Origin: Phycisphaeraceae bacterium
Lineage (GTDB): Bacteria; Planctomycetota; Phycisphaerae; Phycisphaerales; UBA1924
Direction of reading: 5' to 3'
DNA length: 64,000 nt
Assembly: GCA_021297895.1 (NCBI GenBank)
Contig: JAJTHN010000021.1
Span: 1-64,000, forward strand
The notes under the pieces are model-generated. The model saw nothing but the letters and a program-made list of their open reading frames with translations, ran no database searches and was not told where the DNA came from. Made by a program: the position numbers and the translations under genes. The stretch's first letter is position 1. Each line of letters opens with the position of its first letter. Of this stretch, positions 22,984 to 48,653 are shown piece by piece.

Positions 22984-25872
<2,889 letters not shown>

Positions 25873-26130
25873 GGCTGTTCTCCCTGGAGCAGATGCGAAA
25901 AGTTGTCTGCGGTGATATGAAGTTCTCGCCTGGAAGCCCGATGCGGAACCGCACCTGCAAGAACGTTTGGTCGCGCTGGGAACCGGAATCCGATCGCCCG
26001 TGGCCGCGACTCTGTGGCGGCTCGATCGCCCGCCGCGAGCCGGGGCGCATCGCCGCGCTCGCCGGCACATCTCAAAGACCGCGCACAAGCCCGCTTGGGC
26101 TCGCGCCGGCCACTTTTCCTCTATCGGTCA

Positions 26131-29181: not shown

Positions 29182-29291
29182 AGACGTTCCTTCCGAGTTC
29201 GTTTCTGAGGTGGCGTTCGGGGCCGATGATAGCAGCACAACCGCGCCAATTCCGCCCCGCTCTCGCCCCGGAGCACGATTACCATCCGACC

Positions 29292-30476
29292 GTGATCATC
29301 CCCCTCGGCACCGACCGCCCACTCCGCCACCGTCCCGTCGTCACCACGACGCTTATCGGCCTGAACGTCCTCGTCGCCATCACCCTGCTCGCCTTCAGCG
29401 TCACCAACCCCCAACTCGCAGAACGCATCCGCGACGCCGGCGCTCTCGACCCCACCGCCCCGAATCCCATCACCTTCATTTCCTACCAGTTCCTCCACGC
29501 CGGATTCTGGCATCTGTTCGGAAACATGCTTGTCCTCTGGGCTTTCGGCCCGAACCTTGAAGATCGCCTCCGCTGGTTCGGCTTTTTGGCCTTTTACCTC
29601 GCCTCCGGCGTCATCGCCGGACTCGTTCATACGCTGCTCGAATTCAATCCGTGCATCGGCGCATCCGGCGCCGTCGCCGGCGTCACCGGCGCATCCATCA
29701 TCCTCTTCCCGCGGACCAGCGTCCGCTGCTTCATCCTCTTCATCTACGTCGGCATCTTCATGCTCCCGGCGTGGTGGTTCATCGGGTTCAGCATCGCCAA
29801 AGACCTGTTCCTCACGATCACCGACCGCGCCGGAAACGTCGCCACCTGGGCCCACCTAGGCGGGTACGCCTCGGGCATCCTCGCGATGGTCATCCTCCGC
29901 CTGACCGGGCTGCTGAGCATGGAGGATTACGACCTGCTCGCCCTTATCCGCCAGCGACGCCGCCGCCGCGAGATCGAGCAGGCCGTGCGTGCGAACGACA
30001 TCGCCCTGCGACATCGCGCCGAGGCGGCGCTCTCGCCGGAAGATCAGGCCTGGGCCGCGCGGCGTGCCATGATCACATCGAGCCTCGCCGCGGGCAAAGC
30101 CCTCGACGCCGGACGAGCCTGGGCCGCGCTGGCACGCGATGCCGATGCCCTCGCTCGCCCCGATACCGAGCGTCGCCCCGTGGCGCTTTCGCCGCGGCAG
30201 CAACTGGACGTTGCCAACGCCCTTTTCGCCGCGGGCGAGCACGCATCCGCGGCCAGAGCGTACGACGCGTACGCCACGGCCTATCCGCGCGAAGGCGAGA
30301 CGCCGCGAGCCCTGCTCATGCTCGCGCTCATCTCCGCCCGCCACCTCGCCGAGCCCGCCCGCGCCGCCTCGGCACTCGCCCGAGTTTCCTCGCGATTCAC
30401 CGATCCCGCGCTCGATCAACTGGCCACCGAACTCGCCCGCGAGTGCGCAGGTGCCAAAGCTCCGGACCAGCCATAG
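29292..30476 (+). CDS. Rhomboid intramembrane serine protease with C-terminal TPR-like region
   Basis: About 394 residues. The first 215 are a rhomboid: FLHAGFWHLFGNM gives the HxxxHxxxxN motif of TM2, GASGAVAGV carries the nucleophilic Ser in TM4, and WAHLGGYASG carries the catalytic His in TM6. The rest is soluble, Ala/Arg-rich and helical, with TPR-like phrasing (ANALFAAGEHASAARAYDAYATAYP). GTG 29292 gives the common planctomycete start M-I-I-P-L-G-T-D; ATG 29226 in the same frame would add 22 residues, and no ribosome binding site decides. It ends with TAG. Substrates are unknown. Confidence 0.88.
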   Translation: MIIPLGTDRPLRHRPVVTTTLIGLNVLVAITLLAFSVTNPQLAERIRDAGALDPTAPNPITFISYQFLHAGFWHLFGNMLVLWAFGPNLEDRLRWFGFLAFYLASGVIAGLVHTLLEFNPCIGASGAVAGVTGASIILFPRTSVRCFILFIYVGIFMLPAWWFIGFSIAKDLFLTITDRAGNVATWAHLGGYASGILAMVILRLTGLLSMEDYDLLALIRQRRRRREIEQAVRANDIALRHRAEAALSPEDQAWAARRAMITSSLAAGKALDAGRAWAALARDADALARPDTERRPVALSPRQQLDVANALFAAGEHASAARAYDAYATAYPREGETPRALLMLALISARHLAEPARAASALARVSSRFTDPALDQLATELARECAGAKAPDQP

Positions 30477-37725: not shown

Positions 37726-38646
37726 TTGATTCGCAGCATGACCGGCTTCGGCGAGGCGTCGGGTACATTCGAGGGAACGCACTACTTCCTCGAGGTCCGG
37801 TCGCTCAACAACCGCTACTTCAAGGCCACGATCCGTCTTCCCGATGTTTTTCAGGGCCTTGAGGCCGAGATCGAGGCGGCACTGCGCCGTCGCATCGCCC
37901 GCGGCTCCATCACCGTCGTGGCGACGTGTACGGACGAGTCCGCGGACGCGGCGTACAGCGTGAATCACCGTGCGCTCTCGTCGTACATCGAGCAGGTGCT
38001 GCGTACGCCGCAGGTTGCCTCGGGGCAGGTTCGGTTGGACCTCGGCCCGCTGCTGAGCCTTCCCGGCGTGCTGCAGCAGCCGAGCAACGAAGAGTCCCGA
38101 CTTGTCAAGGCCCGCGCCGCGTACACGACGTTGCTGGACAAGGCGGTCGACGGAATGCTCGCCATGCGTGCGCGAGAGGGGCAGGCGCTGCTGAAGGATC
38201 TCATCGCCCAGCGGGATGTCATCGCCGAGCAGCTCGAAACGGTGCGGGAGCGGTCGCCGCAGGTTGTGCAGGAGTATGAACTGCGGCTCAAGGGCCGAAT
38301 CGAGATGATGATCAAGGACGCGGAGTTGAAGCTCCAGCCGGTGGACCTGATCCGAGAGATCGCGGTGTACGCCGAGCGTTCGGACATCAGCGAGGAGATC
38401 ATGCGGCTCGGCGAGCACATTCGCCAGTACACCGAGATGATCACCGGCACCGGCGGTCACGCGCCCAAGCCGGGCGAGGCGGGCGATCGGCCCGTCGGGC
38501 GCACGCTGGACTTCCTGGCCCAGGAGATGCTCCGCGAGGCGAACACGATGGCCAGCAAGTCGGCCGACAGCGTGATCAGCCGGTGCATTGTTGAGGTCAA
38601 GGGCGCGATCGACCGGATCAAGGAACAGGTGCAGAACGTCGAGTGA
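37726..38646 (+). CDS. YicC/YloC-family endoribonuclease
   Basis: A 306-residue YicC-family protein, a metal-dependent endoribonuclease acting in RNA turnover. The family N-terminus [12 protein letters not shown] and [18 protein letters not shown] are exact hallmarks. The C-terminus has the conserved [21 protein letters not shown] and the [28 protein letters not shown] helix. The TTG at 37726 is used because GGAGG lies 5 bases upstream. In many bacteria yicC neighbours gmk or rpoZ, but not here. Confidence 0.93.
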
Positions 38647-38666
38647 CGTTCGTCTGCAGGGCGTTC

Positions 38667-39419
38667 ATGCGATGGACCGAGCCAACACGGTGCGTGCGCG
38701 TTGCGTGGCCGCGGGGCCTGCGGGCGTTCACGCTGATCGAACTGCTGGTGGTCATCGCGATCATCGCGATTCTGATCGCGGTGCTGCTGCCGGCGCTCTC
38801 GGCGGCTCGAGAGGTCAGCAGGTCGGCGGTGTGCCTGAACAACCAGCGTCAGATCTTCCTGATCTGCCGCGCGTACGCCAACGACTACAAGGGCCTCGGC
38901 CCCGCGGTCGGTCAGCCTTATGCGGCGTTTCCGAACTGGGCGTTTGTCGTGCAGAGCGAGACCCGCCAGGGGACGACCGCGGCGCAGGTCTTCAGCGAGA
39001 ACTCTGTTCTGGTGTGTCCGACCATTCGCGGGCGACTCGGCCCGCAGATGCAACGGACGTACGCGATGAACGCGACGGGGCGAGCCCGGAGCGTGTTCCC
39101 GGGCGATCCGGATGACTATGACGCGGCCCCGGTTCATGTGAACTACGACAAGATCACCGATCCGTCGAGCACGCTGGCGCTGGTCGATAGCCAGGCTGCG
39201 CCCGTCGGGCCGGACCAGCCCCCTGCAACGCGAACGGCGAGCGTGCTGGACTTTCGTCAGGAGCCTCACGTCAGCGGCAGGCTGTGGTTTGCGCACAATG
39301 CCGGTCGCGGTGCCGCGGCGGGTGCGGGCGGAGGTCGATCGTTCGCGGCCGGGCGGTTCGACGGTTCGGCGGGAACGTATTCGGAAGTGCTGCCCGCGCA
39401 CCTCTCGTTGCTGCGATAG
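38667..39419 (+). CDS. Prepilin-type N-terminal methylation protein
   Basis: A 250-residue pseudopilin-like protein. The leader and helix [20 protein letters not shown] is a class III signal cleaved after G/A before F by prepilin peptidase. The periplasmic part contains CPTIRGRLG and an FAHN...RFDGS stretch that is a degenerate version of the H-X9-DG C-terminus typical of planctomycete pseudopilins. No T2SS or type IV pilus genes are nearby. GTG 38643, which overlaps the yicC stop, is an alternative start. It ends in TAG. Confidence 0.82.
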
Positions 39420-39703
39420 CGGCCCGGCAACACGCGGCCGGACGGTAGGGGGCTGGGCGGTATCTGAGATCCGAACCGCGGGCCGACGGACGGGCGGGGA
39501 TGGCCGAACGCAATAACTTTGAAGGGGCTGGGCTCGATTTCCGAGCGTTGGGCGGGGGTCGCGATCACTTTTTGCGCGCCGGGCGGCATTTTCGGTGGCT
39601 TGCGTTAGACTGGTTTCTCCGAATGTGCGACCGTTGCCCACCGGTGTGCCGCTTCGGGAACCCAAATGCCCAACGACTCTGCCGCTCGCAGAGGGAGATC
39701 ATC
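39420..39703. other. Intergenic region before the giant dockerin gene
   Basis: No convincing gene is seen in these 284 bases. A TTAGACT at 39605-39611 could be a -10 but lacks a clear -35. A 6-bp hairpin (CTCTGC at 39677-39682, GCAGAG at 39688-39693) abuts the GGGAG ribosome binding site of the next gene and could modulate its access. Confidence 0.4.
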
Positions 39704-42700
39704 ATGAAGTGTATGAACGGTCGAGGTCTGGTTCGTCTGTTGAGCGGATCGATGGCGCTGGTTCTGGCGTCGTCGGCGTGTTTCGGGCAGACGTCGACGT
39801 GGAGCGTGGCGGGGCCGGGGTCGTGGAGCGACGCTGCGCGGTGGTCGGCGGGTGTTCCTGGTGCGGGGACGCTGGCGGTGTTCGATGTGGTGACGACACC
39901 GAGCACCAACGTGGTCCAAGTGCCTTTGTCGCAGGCGGGCTCGCCGCCGGCGGGAATCGCCACGTGGCACGGAACCATCGCGCTGCGGTTTGATGCGACG
40001 ACGAACTGGACGCTCACGCAGCCGTTGGTGGTCTCTTCTCCGAGCACGGGCACGGAGCCGAACCCGCTGGTGTACATCGGCGCGGTTGACGGATCGACGG
40101 TTCAGTTGAACGTTCCGGGGTTGCAGGTCGCGACGCTCTCGGACCGCCCGTCGTCCCTGGCGATCGACAGCGGGGCGGATATTCGCGTGGGCACTCCGGC
40201 GGCGCCCGTCGAAGTGGTTGTCGGATCCCAAGGGAGCGGGTACCTGGGAGTGGGACGCTACGGCCTTGCGGGCGGGTTCAACGCGGCGGCGCCGGCGTTG
40301 ACGATCAACGGATCGCTTCGGATCGGCGGGACGGTGCCCAACTCGTTCCCCTTCGGACAGGTGGAGGTGTTCACCGGAAGCATGAGCGTCACGGGCGCGA
40401 TCAATGTCGGCGCGCCCGACAGCACCGGCACCTTCTGCGGCGGCGGCGGGACGATCGGAGTCAGGCAGGGTGCGGTGTTGAACGCGGCGTCGATCAATCT
40501 GCTGCCGGCATGCTCGGGTTCGGTCGGCGTCGTCGGCGACGGAACGATCAACGCGACGATCACCGGCGCCGGCCCGATCCAGCCGGTCGCGTCGAGTTCG
40601 CCGTTGACCGTGAACGGCTCGATCAGCATGACTTCAACGCAGCTCCAAGTAGCCCAGTCGCAGGCTCAACCCACTTCGGTCTCGCGGCTTGTGGTCAATG
40701 GCGCGTGCGATCTGGGCACGTTCGGGATCTCGTGGACGGAGTTTGACTTCAGCGTTTCGCCGCCCGCGCCGTATCTCCCGCCGCCGGGAACATCGATCCG
40801 GCTTGTGCAGGCGACGACTTTCAGCGGGACCTATGTCGAGACTACGCCGTTGCCGGCGTTTCCGGACAGCCGTCAGTGGCAGGTCGTTGTGGACTCGACG
40901 GGCGTGACGCTCAACGTCATCGGCGGCGTGGTGCCGACGCTGTCCGTGTCGCCGTCGAGTGTTGTGATGAACCTGAATCAGACGCGGGCGTTCGGGGCGT
41001 TCTTCGGCGTGCCGGGTGCGCAGGTCGATGTGACCGGGCAGTGTGTCTTTGGCGAGACGAACGGACTTCTCAGCCCGGTGAGTTCTTCGGGCGAGTCGCC
41101 GTTCCTGTTTCTGGCCGTGGCGACGGGTCAGACGACAATCGACATCACGGGCGGCGGACCGGCCGCGGGACGGACGGCGACGGTGCCGGTGCGTGTGGTC
41201 GATGCGAGCCAGATCCGAATCACGCCGGAGTTCCCGGATGTTTCGCTCGTCGGACAGACGATCTTGTTGCGAGCGGAGATCTTCGATGAGACCGAGCAGG
41301 CGTGGGTCGATGTGACCGGCCAGGTGCTGTGGGAGAGCGCCAACACATCGCTGGCGACGGTGAATCAGGGCCAGGTGACGTTCGTCGCCGAAGGTTCGAC
41401 GGACATCTTCGTCACCTTCGACACGCTGAGCACGTCGGTTGGCGTCGAGGCCGTGGTGCCAACTTCGCTGATCGTTCAGGGCCCCAGCAACGTCATCGGA
41501 CGGGGGGTGACGCGTCAGCTTTCGGCCCTTGCGTACTCGGCATCGGGGTTCGCGGTGGATGTCACCAATTTCGTGACGTGGTCCAGCACCGATCCGGCGA
41601 GTGTCAGCGTGGATGCGAGCGGGCGGATCACGGGTGTTTCAACGGCCGGCGCAACGCCGGTGGGCGTGACGATCGAGGCGGGTTTCGGTGCGTTGTCAGC
41701 GACGTTCGGTGTGACGCTTCTGGACGTGCAGTTCGTTCGGCTGGAGCCGAGTGCCGCGTTGCTGAGCGAGAGCGGCGTGTTCTCCGGCAGCCGTCACGAT
41801 GCCATTGTGCGGTATGGGAACGGGATTGAGGAGTTTGTGACCAGCGAGGCGACACTCGCGACAGAGAACCCGTCGGTGGCGGCGTTCAACCCGATGAACC
41901 CGGGGCTGCTGGTCGCCGCCGCGGCGGGGCAGACGACGATGAGCGTGACCTACGGACAGAGCACATCTTCTGGCAACCCGGTGACGGTGGTCGCAGGTCT
42001 CGCGACGCTGAGCGTGTCGCCGTCGACGGTTCAGATCGGCGCGGGCTACGCGACGCGACTGCGGGCGATCGTGACGTTCGGCAACGGCTCCACGCGCGAC
42101 GTGACGGACGAGTCGTTCTGGCAATCGTCGACTCCGTCGATCGTGAACCTTGCGCGCGGGCGGGTGCGTGTCGACGCGAACGCGAGCTCGCAGACCGCCA
42201 CGGTGACGGCGCTGGTCGCGACTGAGTCGGCATCGGCGAGCGTTTCGGTGGTCGCGAGCCCGCCGCCGAGCACGCACGAGCTGATCTCGGTGACGACGGG
42301 GAATCCCGGCACACGGGCCAATGCCGCATCGGTCGCGCCGAGCATGAGCGCGGACGGGAACATCGTGGCGTTCATGAGCCGCGCATCGAATCTGGCGGAC
42401 TTCACGTTCGCCGGACTCTGGCAGGTGTATGTGCGCGACCGCGCGGCGGGAACCACGACCCTGATCTCGCGTCGCGGGCCGCTGGAGCCGGGGAACGGGG
42501 ATTCGTTCGGACCGTTCGTTTCGCCCAACGGTCGGTATGTGGCGTTCCTTTCCGACGCGACGAACCTCGTGCTGGGCGATACCAATGGCGGGACGGATGC
42601 GTTCGTGTTCGATCGGGTGACGCAGACGCTCTCGCGCGTGAGCACGCGAGCGAATGGGCAGGAGGCTGCCGCGCAGCGGCTCTCGGCGCTGGCCGCTGAC

Positions 42701-43858
42701 GGCCAGCCGCTGCGTCCGATCAGCATCAGCGATGACGGGCAGATCGTGGCCTTCAGGATGTGGTCGTCGAACATCGTGAGCAATCTGACCCCAAGTGCGC
42801 CGGCGATCTTCGTGAAGAACCGTGCGACCCAGGAGGTCATCGCGGTGCCGACGACGCTCGCGGGCGTACCGATCCAGGACTTTGTCAGCGCCGAGCCGCT
42901 GCTGTCTCCTGATGGGCTGTCGCTCGCGTTCGTTTCCGGCCTGAACACGTGGACGGGCACCTCTGGCGGCGGGCAGCAGGTGTTCGCGGTCTCCATCCAG
43001 CGCACGCCGACCCTCGCGGCACTGAACCGGACGCGCGTGTCGGTGAACAGCGCGGGCGTTTTCGCCAACGGGCTGTTCAGCGACGGAACGGGATTGACGG
43101 CCGACGGACGCTTCGTGGCGTTCACGTCCGACGCGACGAACCTTCTGCCGGGCTACACCAACGATGATCCGGATCTGCCGGGTGTCAACGGCGTGCCGAC
43201 GATCTACTCGTTCGATCGGCTGGATGGCACGATCCGTGCCATCTCGAGCCTGCCGAATGGTGCTCAGCCGGATCGGCGGTCGTTCTACGCGACGCTGACA
43301 CCCAGCGGCTCGCATGCGGCGTTCTACTCGCGTGCCAGCGGCCTCCAGCCGGGGATCCTCGACAACGGGTTCCGTCAGGTGTACGTGCGCGGACTCTCGG
43401 GCGGCGCGGGGATCGGCGCTTCGCAGGTGATGAGCATCAACAGCCTGGGCCAGATGGGCGACGATGAGTCGTCGCTGAGCCAGTATGTGCAGCTCAACAC
43501 CGACGCGACGATCGTGGTGTACGCCAGCAAGGCGGACAATCTCGTGCCCGGCGATGGAAACGGGTACATGGAGGTCTTCCTGACACGACGGACCAATGGC
43601 CCGGTTACGCCGGGTTGCAGCCCGGCGGATGTGGCCAACACCGACGGCGACCCCATTCCGGATGACGCGATCGACAACGGTGACTTCTCGACCTTCTTCA
43701 CGGCGTTCTTCGCGGCCGAGGGTGACCCCTTCCGGCTGGTCGCGGACATTGCCAACACCGACGGCGAGACGATCGTCGAGGGCGGAGGTCCCGACGGGGT
43801 TGTCGACAACGGCGACTTCGCGGCGTTCTTCGTGTACTTCTTCCAGGGCTGCCCTTGA
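39704..43858 (+). CDS. Giant secreted protein: G8/beta-helix-like N-terminus, Big domains, beta-propeller, GC-type dockerin repeats
   Basis: A 1384-residue exported protein. The ATG at 39704 follows GGGAG. The signal peptide ends at SACFG. Residues 25-400 are beta-rich with autotransporter-like phrasing (STWSVAGPGSWSDAARWSAG). Residues about 410-865 hold four or five Ig-like Big domains, seen as LSVSPSSVVMNLNQTRAF, SLIVQGPSNVIGRGVTRQLSA and LSVSPSTVQIGAGYATRLRAI. Residues about 870-1300 are a TolB/PD40-like propeller (S-P-D/N-G-x-x-V-A-F repeats). The end has two dockerin-like EF-hand repeats, DVANTDGD...DNGDFSTFFTAFF and DIANTDGE...DNGDFAAFFVYFF, ending QGCP. A surface or biofilm structural role is likely; no enzyme motif is seen. 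Confidence 0.8.
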   Translation: MKCMNGRGLVRLLSGSMALVLASSACFGQTSTWSVAGPGSWSDAARWSAGVPGAGTLAVFDVVTTPSTNVVQVPLSQAGSPPAGIATWHGTIALRFDATTNWTLTQPLVVSSPSTGTEPNPLVYIGAVDGSTVQLNVPGLQVATLSDRPSSLAIDSGADIRVGTPAAPVEVVVGSQGSGYLGVGRYGLAGGFNAAAPALTINGSLRIGGTVPNSFPFGQVEVFTGSMSVTGAINVGAPDSTGTFCGGGGTIGVRQGAVLNAASINLLPACSGSVGVVGDGTINATITGAGPIQPVASSSPLTVNGSISMTSTQLQVAQSQAQPTSVSRLVVNGACDLGTFGISWTEFDFSVSPPAPYLPPPGTSIRLVQATTFSGTYVETTPLPAFPDSRQWQVVVDSTGVTLNVIGGVVPTLSVSPSSVVMNLNQTRAFGAFFGVPGAQVDVTGQCVFGETNGLLSPVSSSGESPFLFLAVATGQTTIDITGGGPAAGRTATVPVRVVDASQIRITPEFPDVSLVGQTILLRAEIFDETEQAWVDVTGQVLWESANTSLATVNQGQVTFVAEGSTDIFVTFDTLSTSVGVEAVVPTSLIVQGPSNVIGRGVTRQLSALAYSASGFAVDVTNFVTWSSTDPASVSVDASGRITGVSTAGATPVGVTIEAGFGALSATFGVTLLDVQFVRLEPSAALLSESGVFSGSRHDAIVRYGNGIEEFVTSEATLATENPSVAAFNPMNPGLLVAAAAGQTTMSVTYGQSTSSGNPVTVVAGLATLSVSPSTVQIGAGYATRLRAIVTFGNGSTRDVTDESFWQSSTPSIVNLARGRVRVDANASSQTATVTALVATESASASVSVVASPPPSTHELISVTTGNPGTRANAASVAPSMSADGNIVAFMSRASNLADFTFAGLWQVYVRDRAAGTTTLISRRGPLEPGNGDSFGPFVSPNGRYVAFLSDATNLVLGDTNGGTDAFVFDRVTQTLSRVSTRANGQEAAAQRLSALAADGQPLRPISISDDGQIVAFRMWSSNIVSNLTPSAPAIFVKNRATQEVIAVPTTLAGVPIQDFVSAEPLLSPDGLSLAFVSGLNTWTGTSGGGQQVFAVSIQRTPTLAALNRTRVSVNSAGVFANGLFSDGTGLTADGRFVAFTSDATNLLPGYTNDDPDLPGVNGVPTIYSFDRLDGTIRAISSLPNGAQPDRRSFYATLTPSGSHAAFYSRASGLQPGILDNGFRQVYVRGLSGGAGIGASQVMSINSLGQMGDDESSLSQYVQLNTDATIVVYASKADNLVPGDGNGYMEVFLTRRTNGPVTPGCSPADVANTDGDPIPDDAIDNGDFSTFFTAFFAAEGDPFRLVADIANTDGETIVEGGGPDGVVDNGDFAAFFVYFFQGCP

Positions 43859-44126: not shown

Positions 44127-45278
44127 ATGCGTGCAGGTGTGAAGTCGTGGGTGGCTCGGTCGGTCGTGGTGTCGGGCGCGATGGCGTGCTTGGCGATGCT
44201 TGGTTGCGAGCGCCAGCGGGCGGCGTTTGTGCCGCCGCCACCGCCGGAGGTCACGGTTGAGTCGCCGACGCGTCAGCGCGTTGCCGATGCGATGGAGTTC
44301 ACGGGAACGACGCGAGGGTACGAGACGGTCGAGATCCGCGCGCGGGTGCGCGGGTTCCTCGAGAAGAAGCATGTTCAGGACGGCAAGCGTGTGCAGCAGG
44401 GAGACCTGCTCTTTACCATCGACCCGCGCACGTTCGAGGCGGCGGTGGAGCAGGCGCGTGCGGAACTGGCGACGCGCGAGTCGGAACTGAAGCTGGCGAT
44501 CGTGACGCTCGAGCGGACCAGTGCCGCGGCGGCGACCAACGCGGTATCCAAGCAGGAAGTGGACAGGGCGGCGGCGCAGCGGGATGGGGCGATCGCGCAG
44601 GTGGATCTGGCCAAGGCGCGGCTGCGTGCGGCGGAGTTGGACCTTGAGTTCACGAACGTGCGATCGCCGATTACCGGTCGGATCGGGTTCATCCGTGTGT
44701 AGGAGGGCGAGTTGGTCGGCGCTTCGGAGCCGACACTGCTGGCGACGGTGATCAACGACTCGAAGGTCTATGCGACGTACGACATGGACGAGCGAGTGAT
44801 TCTGGAACTTCGACGCGGCAACCAGAACAAACGGCCGGGGGAGGATGGCCGGGCCGAACTGGTCGTGCGGATGGCGATGGCCAATGAGGAAGGCTGGCCG
44901 CACGTGGGGCGATTCGAGCGGGCGGACAACACGGTCAACAGCGCCACGGGCACGCTGCGGGTTGAATCGATCTTTGAGAACCCCGACGGCGCGATCGTGC
45001 CGGGAACGTTCGTGCGTGTGCGGCCCGAGTTCGGCGAGAAGGACGTGCTGACGGTGCCGGATGTGGCGGTGATGGCCGACCAGCGGGGCCGGTATGTGCT
45101 GGTCGTCGCGGGGGCAGGGGCGGAGGGAAGTGTCGAGCGGCGCGACGTGACCGTGGGGGAGGTGGTCGAGCGTCGGCGGGTGATCATGTCCGGCCTGACC
45201 GAGGCCGATCGCGTGATCACCAACGGCGTGCAGCGTGCTCGGCCGGGTGGCACGGTGAAGGTGGGCGGCGGGAAGTAG
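44127..45278 (+). pseudogene. RND efflux periplasmic adaptor, interrupted by an in-frame amber codon
   Basis: The 44127 frame encodes a membrane-fusion protein (HlyD/AcrA type): lipobox LAMLGC, the barrel-sandwich start VTVESPTRQRVADAMEFTGT, lipoyl half-motif EIRARVRGFLEKKHVQDGKRVQQGD, a coiled-coil hairpin, then RSPITGRIGFIRV. There TAG stands at 44700-44702. The same frame resumes at once with EGELVGASEPTLLATV, the exact continuation of the family, and runs on through the beta-barrel and membrane-proximal domains to TAG at 45276. With the amber read as an amino acid the protein would be about 383 residues, a normal length. TTG 44712 could restart translation but would give a fragment without the signal. 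It is a nonsense mutation, a suppressed codon or a sequencing error. Confidence 0.8.
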
Positions 45279-45398
45279 CGGCCGCGGGGCGGGCGGATAC
45301 GTCGGCCGGGGGCGGCCGGGGGTGTTGATCGTGTCGGGACGAGGTTCACGAGTTTCCGCGAGCGTCTGTTGGCGGTCGCGATCAGCCTGGAAGTGCAC

Positions 45399-48300
45399 AT
45401 GCTCAGCCAGTTCTTCATCCGACGCCCGGTCTTTGCGTGCGTCATCTCGATCCTGATCACGCTGCTGGGTGGCATCGCGGCGTCCCTGCTGCCGACGGCG
45501 CAGTACCCCGAGCTCGCGCCGCCCGTGGTGCGTGTCGAGGCGACGTATCCGGGCGCGAGCGCGCAGACGATCGCGGACACGGTGGCGTCGCCGCTCGAGC
45601 AGGAGGTCAACGGTGTGGACGGCATGCTGTACATGCAGTCCAACAGCTCCGATGGGCGCTACGGGCTGGACGTGACCTTCGAAGTCGGAACGGATATCGA
45701 CATGGCCGCGGTGCTGGTGCAGAACCGCGTGAGCATCGCGCTGGCCAAGCTGCCCGACGAGGTGCGGCGCCAGGGCGTGACGACACGCAAGCAGTCGACG
45801 AATCTCGCCGGCGTGGTGAGCCTGTCGTCGGATCTGAATGCCGATGGCACGCCGATGAACGATGACCTGTTCCTGGCGAACTACCTGGCGATCAACTGGC
45901 GTGACGAGTTCTCGCGTGTGCCGGGCGTCGGGGCGATCACGATTCTGCCGGCGAAGGACTACGGCATGCGGATCTGGCTTGATCCGCGCAAACTGCGGGC
46001 GCGTCAGTTGACGGTCAACGATGTGATCAACGCGGTGCGCGAGCAGAACGTCCAGGTCGCCGCGGGACGCATCGGCTCCGAGCCGGCGCCGGAGGGGACG
46101 GACTTTGAACTGACCATCACGGCCCGCGGGCGTCTTACGGATCCGGCGGAGTTCGCCCGCGTGATCATCAAGAGCGACAACGGGCGCATCGTGCGGATCG
46201 AGGATGTCGCGCGTGTCGAGCTCGGCGCGCGGGATTACGGAACGCTGGCGACATTCAACGGCCGCCCGAACGCGGTGCTGGTGGTGTACCAGTTGCCCGG
46301 GGCGAATCTGGTCGCGCTCGCGGAGGCGGTGCAGGCGAAGCTCGATGAACTCACGCCGCGGCTGGCGGCGGGGGTGCAGGCGAGATTCTTCTACGACTCG
46401 TCGATGTTCATCAAGGCCTCGCTGGAAGAGGTCATCAAGACGCTCATCGAGGCGTTCGTCCTCGTGTTCGTGGTGGTGCTGATCTTCCTTCAGAGCTTCC
46501 GGGCGACACTGATCCCGGCGCTGACGATCCCCATTTCGCTGGTGGGCACGTTCCTGTTCATGGCCGCTCTGGGCTTCAGCATCAACATGCTGACGATGTT
46601 CGGCATGGTGCTGGCGATCGGCATCGTCGTTGACGACGCGATCGTCGTCGTCGAGAATGTCGAGCGAAACATGACCGAGCACAAGCTCGGCGCGTTCGAC
46701 GCGACGGTGCGTGCGATGCACGAGATCACCGGCGCGGTCATCGCGATCACGCTGGTGCTCATGAGCGTGTTCGTGCCCGCGGCGGCTCTGCCCGGGATCA
46801 CCGGCGAGATGTATCGGCAGTTCGCGCTGACGATCGCCGCGAGCACGGCGCTCTCGGCCGTCTGCGCCCTGACGCTCAGCCCCGCGCTGTGCGCGATTCT
46901 GCTCAAGGGCGCTCACGCGGCGGGGCACGATGGCCCGGCCAAGGGCTTTATCCTCTTCCGGCCGCTGGTCTGGGCCGGGCGAGCGTTCAACCGGGTATTT
47001 GATCGGATTACGGCGGTGTATGTTCTGATCGCACGCGGGACGACACGGGTTGCCGCGGTGATGGTGCTGCTGCTTGTCGGCGTGATGGGGCTGACGGCGG
47101 TGGTGTACTCCCGAGTCCCGACGGGCTTTGTGCCGAACGAGGACCTTGGCTTTGCGGTGGTGGCGGCTCAGTTGCCCGACGGCGCTTCTCTGCAGCGCTC
47201 CCGCGATGTGATCGACAAGGTGCGCGTGCAGTTGCTGGGTGACGGCAAGAGCTTGCAGGGGATCGAGGGCATCGCCGATGTCGTGACGCTCTCGGGCTTC
47301 AGCGTGCTCGACGGCAACGGCTCGAACCTTGCCAACGCGTGGATCGTGCTCAAGCCGTGGGACGAGCGGGCCAGAACCGGGCGCTCGGTCAACGCGATCA
47401 TCGGCGACATCAACGCGCGGGTGCAGCAGATTCAGGAAGCGCAGATGCTGGTCTTCTCGCTGCCGGCGATCCCCGGCCTGGGCAACGCCAGCGCGATCGA
47501 TATGCGCGTTCAGGACCGCGGCAACCTGGGGCGGGACTCGCTGGCGCAGGCGACGAACGAGACGATCGGTGCGATTATGGGGCAGCAGCCGCGGACGATC
47601 GCTTTCGCGTTCAGTTCGTACCGGGCCGGCGTGCCGCAATTGCTGGTGGATATCGATCGTGAGAAGGTGATCAAGCTGGATGTTCCGTTGCAGACGGTGT
47701 TCGACACCCTTCAGGCGTCGCTGGGATCGGCGTATGTGAACGACTTCAACCAGTTCGGGCGGACGTGGCAGGTGAGCGTGCAGGCCGATGCGCCGTTCCG
47801 GCTGAGTCCGGTGGACATCACGCGGCTTGAGGTTCGCTCGCGGCGGGGCAACATGATTCCGCTCGGCTCGCTGCTGACTGTTCGCGACACGGTCGGGCCG
47901 GAGCGTGTGGCGAGGTACAACATGTACACGTCGTCGACGATCAACGGCATCCCGCTGCCGGGCGTCAGCAGCGGCGCGGGTATGGCGACGATGCTGGCCG
48001 CGGCCAAGAGCACGCTGCCGCCGGAGATGGGTGTCGAGTGGTCGGGGCTCTCGTACCAAGAGTCGCGTGTCGGCAACCAGGGTCTGCTCGTCTTCGGGCT
48101 GGCGATTCTGCTGGTGTACCTGATTCTGGCGGCGCAGTACGAGAGCTTCGCGACGCCGATCGCGGTGGTGCTGAGCGTGCCGCTGGTGATCATCGGGGCG
48201 ATGCTGGCGCTGTCGTGGCGTGATCTTGACAACAACGTGTTCACGCAGATCGGGCTGGTGCTGCTGGTGGGCCTCGGGGCGAAGAACGCGATCCTCATCG

Positions 48301-48653
48301 TTGAGTTTGCGCGCGAGAACCGTGCCCGGGGCGTGCCGATCCGTCAGGCGGCGATCGACGCGGCACGGACGCGTTTCCGCCCGATCATCATGACGTCGCT
48401 GGCGTTCATCCTCGGCGTTGTGCCGCTGCTGTTTGCGACCGGCGCGGGCGCGGCGAGCCGGCAGGCTCTTGGCACCGCGGTGTTCGGCGGCATGATCGGC
48501 AACACGCTGCTCGGGCTCGTGTTCACGCCGGCGATGTACGTGGTGGTGCAGACCATGGCCGAGTGGGTCCGGCCCATGAAGCCCGCCGCGACGACGGGCT
48601 CATCGGGCCCGGGGCCGGCGGCGCCGGCGGTACAGACCGCCGCGGCCCATTGA
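45399..48653 (+). CDS. RND multidrug efflux pump, inner-membrane subunit (HAE1/AcrB family)
   Basis: A 1084-residue proton-driven transporter. The start MLSQFFIRRPVFACVISI is the family signature (start at 45399, GGAAG box 6 bases upstream). The TM4 proton relay is present as GMVLAIGIVVDDAIVVVENVER, with the paired Asp. Two repeats, each of six TM helices plus a large periplasmic porter/docking loop, are complete through the final TM block GAGAASRQALGTAVFGGMIGNT. It should form a trimer and export drugs or lipophilic compounds through an adaptor and a TolC-like channel. The adaptor lies directly upstream but carries a nonsense codon. No TolC-like gene is adjacent. Confidence 0.95.
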   Translation: MLSQFFIRRPVFACVISILITLLGGIAASLLPTAQYPELAPPVVRVEATYPGASAQTIADTVASPLEQEVNGVDGMLYMQSNSSDGRYGLDVTFEVGTDIDMAAVLVQNRVSIALAKLPDEVRRQGVTTRKQSTNLAGVVSLSSDLNADGTPMNDDLFLANYLAINWRDEFSRVPGVGAITILPAKDYGMRIWLDPRKLRARQLTVNDVINAVREQNVQVAAGRIGSEPAPEGTDFELTITARGRLTDPAEFARVIIKSDNGRIVRIEDVARVELGARDYGTLATFNGRPNAVLVVYQLPGANLVALAEAVQAKLDELTPRLAAGVQARFFYDSSMFIKASLEEVIKTLIEAFVLVFVVVLIFLQSFRATLIPALTIPISLVGTFLFMAALGFSINMLTMFGMVLAIGIVVDDAIVVVENVERNMTEHKLGAFDATVRAMHEITGAVIAITLVLMSVFVPAAALPGITGEMYRQFALTIAASTALSAVCALTLSPALCAILLKGAHAAGHDGPAKGFILFRPLVWAGRAFNRVFDRITAVYVLIARGTTRVAAVMVLLLVGVMGLTAVVYSRVPTGFVPNEDLGFAVVAAQLPDGASLQRSRDVIDKVRVQLLGDGKSLQGIEGIADVVTLSGFSVLDGNGSNLANAWIVLKPWDERARTGRSVNAIIGDINARVQQIQEAQMLVFSLPAIPGLGNASAIDMRVQDRGNLGRDSLAQATNETIGAIMGQQPRTIAFAFSSYRAGVPQLLVDIDREKVIKLDVPLQTVFDTLQASLGSAYVNDFNQFGRTWQVSVQADAPFRLSPVDITRLEVRSRRGNMIPLGSLLTVRDTVGPERVARYNMYTSSTINGIPLPGVSSGAGMATMLAAAKSTLPPEMGVEWSGLSYQESRVGNQGLLVFGLAILLVYLILAAQYESFATPIAVVLSVPLVIIGAMLALSWRDLDNNVFTQIGLVLLVGLGAKNAILIVEFARENRARGVPIRQAAIDAARTRFRPIIMTSLAFILGVVPLLFATGAGAASRQALGTAVFGGMIGNTLLGLVFTPAMYVVVQTMAEWVRPMKPAATTGSSGPGPAAPAVQTAAAH

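Follow-up and report, generated by a model that had tools for sequence, protein, structure and literature searches.

An in-frame TAG codon interrupts the adaptor gene of an HAE-1-type RND pump in a Phycisphaeraceae bacterium

Periplasmic adaptors of HAE-1-type RND pumps, such as AcrA, MexA and MexE, are described by the model TIGR01730. Natural loss of an RND adaptor is known from the gonococcal gene mtrC, for which loss-of-function alleles are reported in 185 isolates; most of these alleles carry a deletion of 2 bp in a GC repeat, and they occur in many isolates and are accompanied by a measured phenotype (PMC7431566). The same gene is also treated in PMC12872460. The adaptor gene described here would resemble the mtrC alleles in being truncated in nature, and differs from them in that a single stop codon is responsible, in one draft genome, and is known from sequence alone. 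We found no literature on RND efflux in Phycisphaerales.

The DNA that was analysed, referred to below as the window, is a stretch of 64,000 nucleotides comprising bases 1-64000 of an 81,811-bp contig, from a genome of 3.48 Mb in 84 contigs with an estimated completeness of 97%. The features of the pump locus are as follows.

44127..44702, + strand: adaptor part 1, 191 aa, with a lipobox-like MLGC (Cys27), the first lipoyl half, an alpha-hairpin and the greater part of the second lipoyl half, a layout deduced from an alignment with AcrA and the familiar anatomy of that protein
44700..44702, + strand: premature in-frame TAG, at a position occupied by Asp or Glu in relatives
44703..45278, + strand: adaptor part 2, in the same frame, conserved, comprising by homology the beta-barrel and membrane-proximal regions and ending in TAG 45276-45278
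45399..48653, + strand: HAE-1 RND permease, intact (PF00873, with NF000282 and TIGR00915 above cut-off)

Translation from ATG 44127 yields 191 residues before the TAG at 44700-44702, and translation of 44127-45281 shows that the same frame continues for 191 further codons to the TAG at 45276-45278. When the internal TAG was read as X, the whole frame from 44127 to 45278 matched TIGR01730 with 256 bits against a cut-off of 94.9, covering positions 1-321 of the 322 in the profile, and a profile built from the adaptor and 15 relatives matched AcrA and MexC-like chains from end to end. Cys27 is invariant in the 16-row alignment of adaptors. Judged by its sequence, then, 44127-45278 encodes an HAE-1-type RND periplasmic adaptor, and the two sides of the TAG are one gene, in agreement with the original prediction of an amber codon splitting a single reading frame. 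The locus has the full-length TIGR01730 match and the pairing with an HAE-1 permease directly downstream that characterise the family, and lacks an uninterrupted frame; it is an interrupted copy of an HAE-1 RND adaptor gene. The TAG lies in the motif of the second lipoyl half, and the sequence after it we take, from the anatomy of AcrA, to be the beta-barrel and the membrane-proximal domain.

The permease also proved to be intact, as had been proposed: PF00873 matches residues 3-1050 with 1078 bits. An OEP (TolC-like) gene was likewise correctly reported to be missing from the vicinity, and no OEP match was found anywhere on the contig that carries the adaptor. Genes of this type are present elsewhere in the genome, on contigs C38, C54, C74 and C83. 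In the four relatives with long flanking sequences, the five reading frames beside the pump are QueC, MreB, a sigma-factor-like gene, a glycosyl hydrolase 20 and one ORF that has no Pfam match, and thus no OEP gene was recognised by Pfam next after the pump in any of them. An unlinked outer-membrane partner therefore appears to be usual here, and the absent TolC neighbour was dropped as a possible defect. Just upstream of the adaptor, at 39500-43858 of the window, lies an ORF of 1452 aa that ends in a repeated 'DNGDF.AFF' motif.

To compare the interrupted codon with its counterparts, we aligned 29 distinct relatives (loci L007-L035, the best-scoring loci of the searches rather than all matches; a further locus, L005, duplicates L012). 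The position corresponding to TAG 44700-44702 was Asp in 24 of these and Glu in five, and was a stop in none; the AcrA chain in structure 5v5s has Thr190 there. The comparison with related genomes that the original prediction had called for thus returned a sense codon in every aligned relative. In a wider search of the family, 161 of 163 genomes contained an adaptor match at E ≤ 0.001, the weaker matches being other adaptor types, and among the matches listed an internal stop was seen only in the adaptor of the source genome, which is the sole representative of its genus in the comparison.

The sequence downstream of the stop shows no decay. At columns that are invariant in 11 close relatives, the gene departs from the consensus at one of 42 positions before the stop and at none of 44 after it, while in intact relatives subjected to the same test the departures number 0-3 of 41-44 positions before the stop and 0-4 of 44-48 beyond it. 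For the second half, relative-rate counts with four outgroups for each sister gave ratios of unique changes between this gene and its sister L007 of 22:19, 14:21, 19:12 and 13:19, and between this gene and its sister L008 of 22:20, 14:23, 20:10 and 19:15, so that neither sister revealed a consistent rate excess. These invariant columns and relative rates reject an old pseudogene. As conservation of the second half matches that seen in intact relatives, the stop is either young or not real.

The explanation that we consider likely is that an ordinary adaptor gene of the AcrA/MexA/MexE type has acquired a nonsense mutation in a single codon, recently and in the assembled lineage. Of the origins first suggested for the stop, this is the one favoured by its absence from relatives, by the lack of decay and by the lack of any sign of recoding. 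The base was read in a single genome of the species; we infer that it is real in the cells.

The main rival of a true mutation is an error of sequencing or assembly, or a minority variant that entered the consensus, the gene being intact in most or all cells. We regard this as unlikely, yet far from negligible. Only one codon deviates in an otherwise well-conserved gene that has no second lesion, and an undecayed second half is just as much to be expected from a sequence error. The assembly is a draft of 84 contigs, possibly derived from a metagenome. Against this, single-base nonsense errors are rare in short-read consensus sequences, and no other in-frame interruption was confirmed in about 0.24 Mb of the genome, so false stops are not a general feature of the assembly. 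The sequencing error raised in the original prediction accordingly keeps its place as the foremost competitor, although a generally faulty assembly finds no support.

The survey of about 0.24 Mb on which this comparison relies covered 812 stops flanked in both directions by 60 or more open codons and ranked them by a two-sided coding score, overlaps between loci not being removed, and TAG 44700 took rank 2. Ranks 1 and 3 are boundaries between separate genes according to Pfam; the lower ranks were checked by family in part, and several of them score better in another frame. Since the neighbouring ranks are gene boundaries, other interrupted genes were discarded as evidence for recoding or for a poor assembly. 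A coding-like run on the + strand at 24.2-25.2 kb was also set aside, being antisense to a minus-strand ORF at 22984-26088.

Full-length adaptor could still be made if a suppressor tRNA read through the TAG or if the codon were reassigned. The fully conserved second half would be expected of a gene whose translation continues in this way, and the necessary tRNA gene could sit in an assembly gap, given that the genome is 97% complete and that a leucine tRNA with anticodon UAG is also unseen. However, the search of the draft genome for a suppressor, proposed as a check, found no CUA anticodon among 45 tRNA genes. A protein resembling release factor 1 is present: it carries the PAT motif, and its best match, NF001859, scored 308.8 bits, below the cut-off of 400. 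A second release factor in the genome carries the SPF motif, both motifs being read in their accepted sense for release factors. TAG moreover ends three of the other 40 coding stretches called on the contig (the two adaptor halves excluded), namely the rhomboid gene at 29226-30476 (PF01694), the prepilin-like gene at 38643-39419 (PF07963) and a third without a Pfam match; the rhomboid and prepilin genes had already been cited as using TAG as a normal stop. Neither a CUA tRNA nor the loss of release factor 1 or disuse of TAG, the marks of a genome that recodes this codon, was therefore found. No other TAG interruption was confirmed in the 0.24 Mb, and every aligned relative has an acidic residue in this column, with no hint of a special residue. 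We found no sign of TAG recoding, and the statement that TAG is not reassigned is supported by these results and by the failure to find PylS in the genome, which also rejects pyrrolysine. Readthrough or reassignment is accordingly very improbable, and the suppressor tRNA listed among the first suggestions is not borne out.

Two features of the translation machinery are recorded here in their own right. The release factor 1-like protein, encoded at L097:500-1627 on the minus strand, scores below the curated cut-off of each of the two RF1 models, and a run of glycines precedes its PAT motif. The tRNA-Leu with anticodon UAG, absent from the 45 tRNA genes, may be missing from the genome or lie in an assembly gap; there are no CTA codons in the genes counted.

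Translation might instead stop at the TAG and begin again at TTG 44712, producing an adaptor in two pieces. The sequence around the stop contains one element that bears on this.

44701..44707, + strand: AGGAGGG, Shine-Dalgarno-like, overlapping the TAG and ending 4 bases before TTG 44712

The spacing of this element makes a restart, one of the options originally offered, physically plausible, and the arrangement AGGAGG-N4..8-start occurs in the window five times on the + strand and never on the − strand. The leucine at this position is encoded by CTN in all 29 distinct relatives, and TTG is found among them only in the source genome; the conserved second half would again be consistent with continued translation. 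On the other hand, the purine-rich run consists of Glu and Gly codons that are also present here in some relatives, and TTG encodes other leucines in these genes, for instance 7 of the 119 in the pump. Folding of the RNA near the stop is ordinary (z -0.11), and structure beyond chance was discounted at this site. The restart product would have 188 aa and begin MVGASEPTLL, with no export signal visible by eye at its start. A working adaptor in two pieces is hence unlikely, because the first is the precursor of a lipoprotein and the second has no visible export signal, which would place them in different compartments. We give a stop and restart of this kind as little credence as readthrough, and slightly less still to the specific proposal that TAG and AGGAGGG-N4-TTG form a working signal through which the RND adaptor is produced in this lineage as two chains.

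Under the preferred reading, a recent nonsense mutation, translation would end after 191 residues, inside the second lipoyl half, and the resulting shortened lipoprotein would lack the domains that dock on the pump, namely the beta-barrel and the membrane-proximal domain. The intact permease encoded downstream would then have no dedicated adaptor. Only one other adaptor match was found in the genome, on contig C54; it has 27% identity and belongs to a MacA/MacB-like cluster, and contig C74 encodes a CusA/CzcA-type permease with its own neighbours. Because no spare HAE-1 adaptor was found in the source genome, the pump is probably non-functional if the stop is real.

For annotation, the locus should be treated as one interrupted adaptor gene and not as two genes, and beyond annotation the finding is of little importance. 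If the stop is real, it would be a further natural case in which an RND adaptor has been lost, as has been described before for Neisseria mtrC (PMC7431566).
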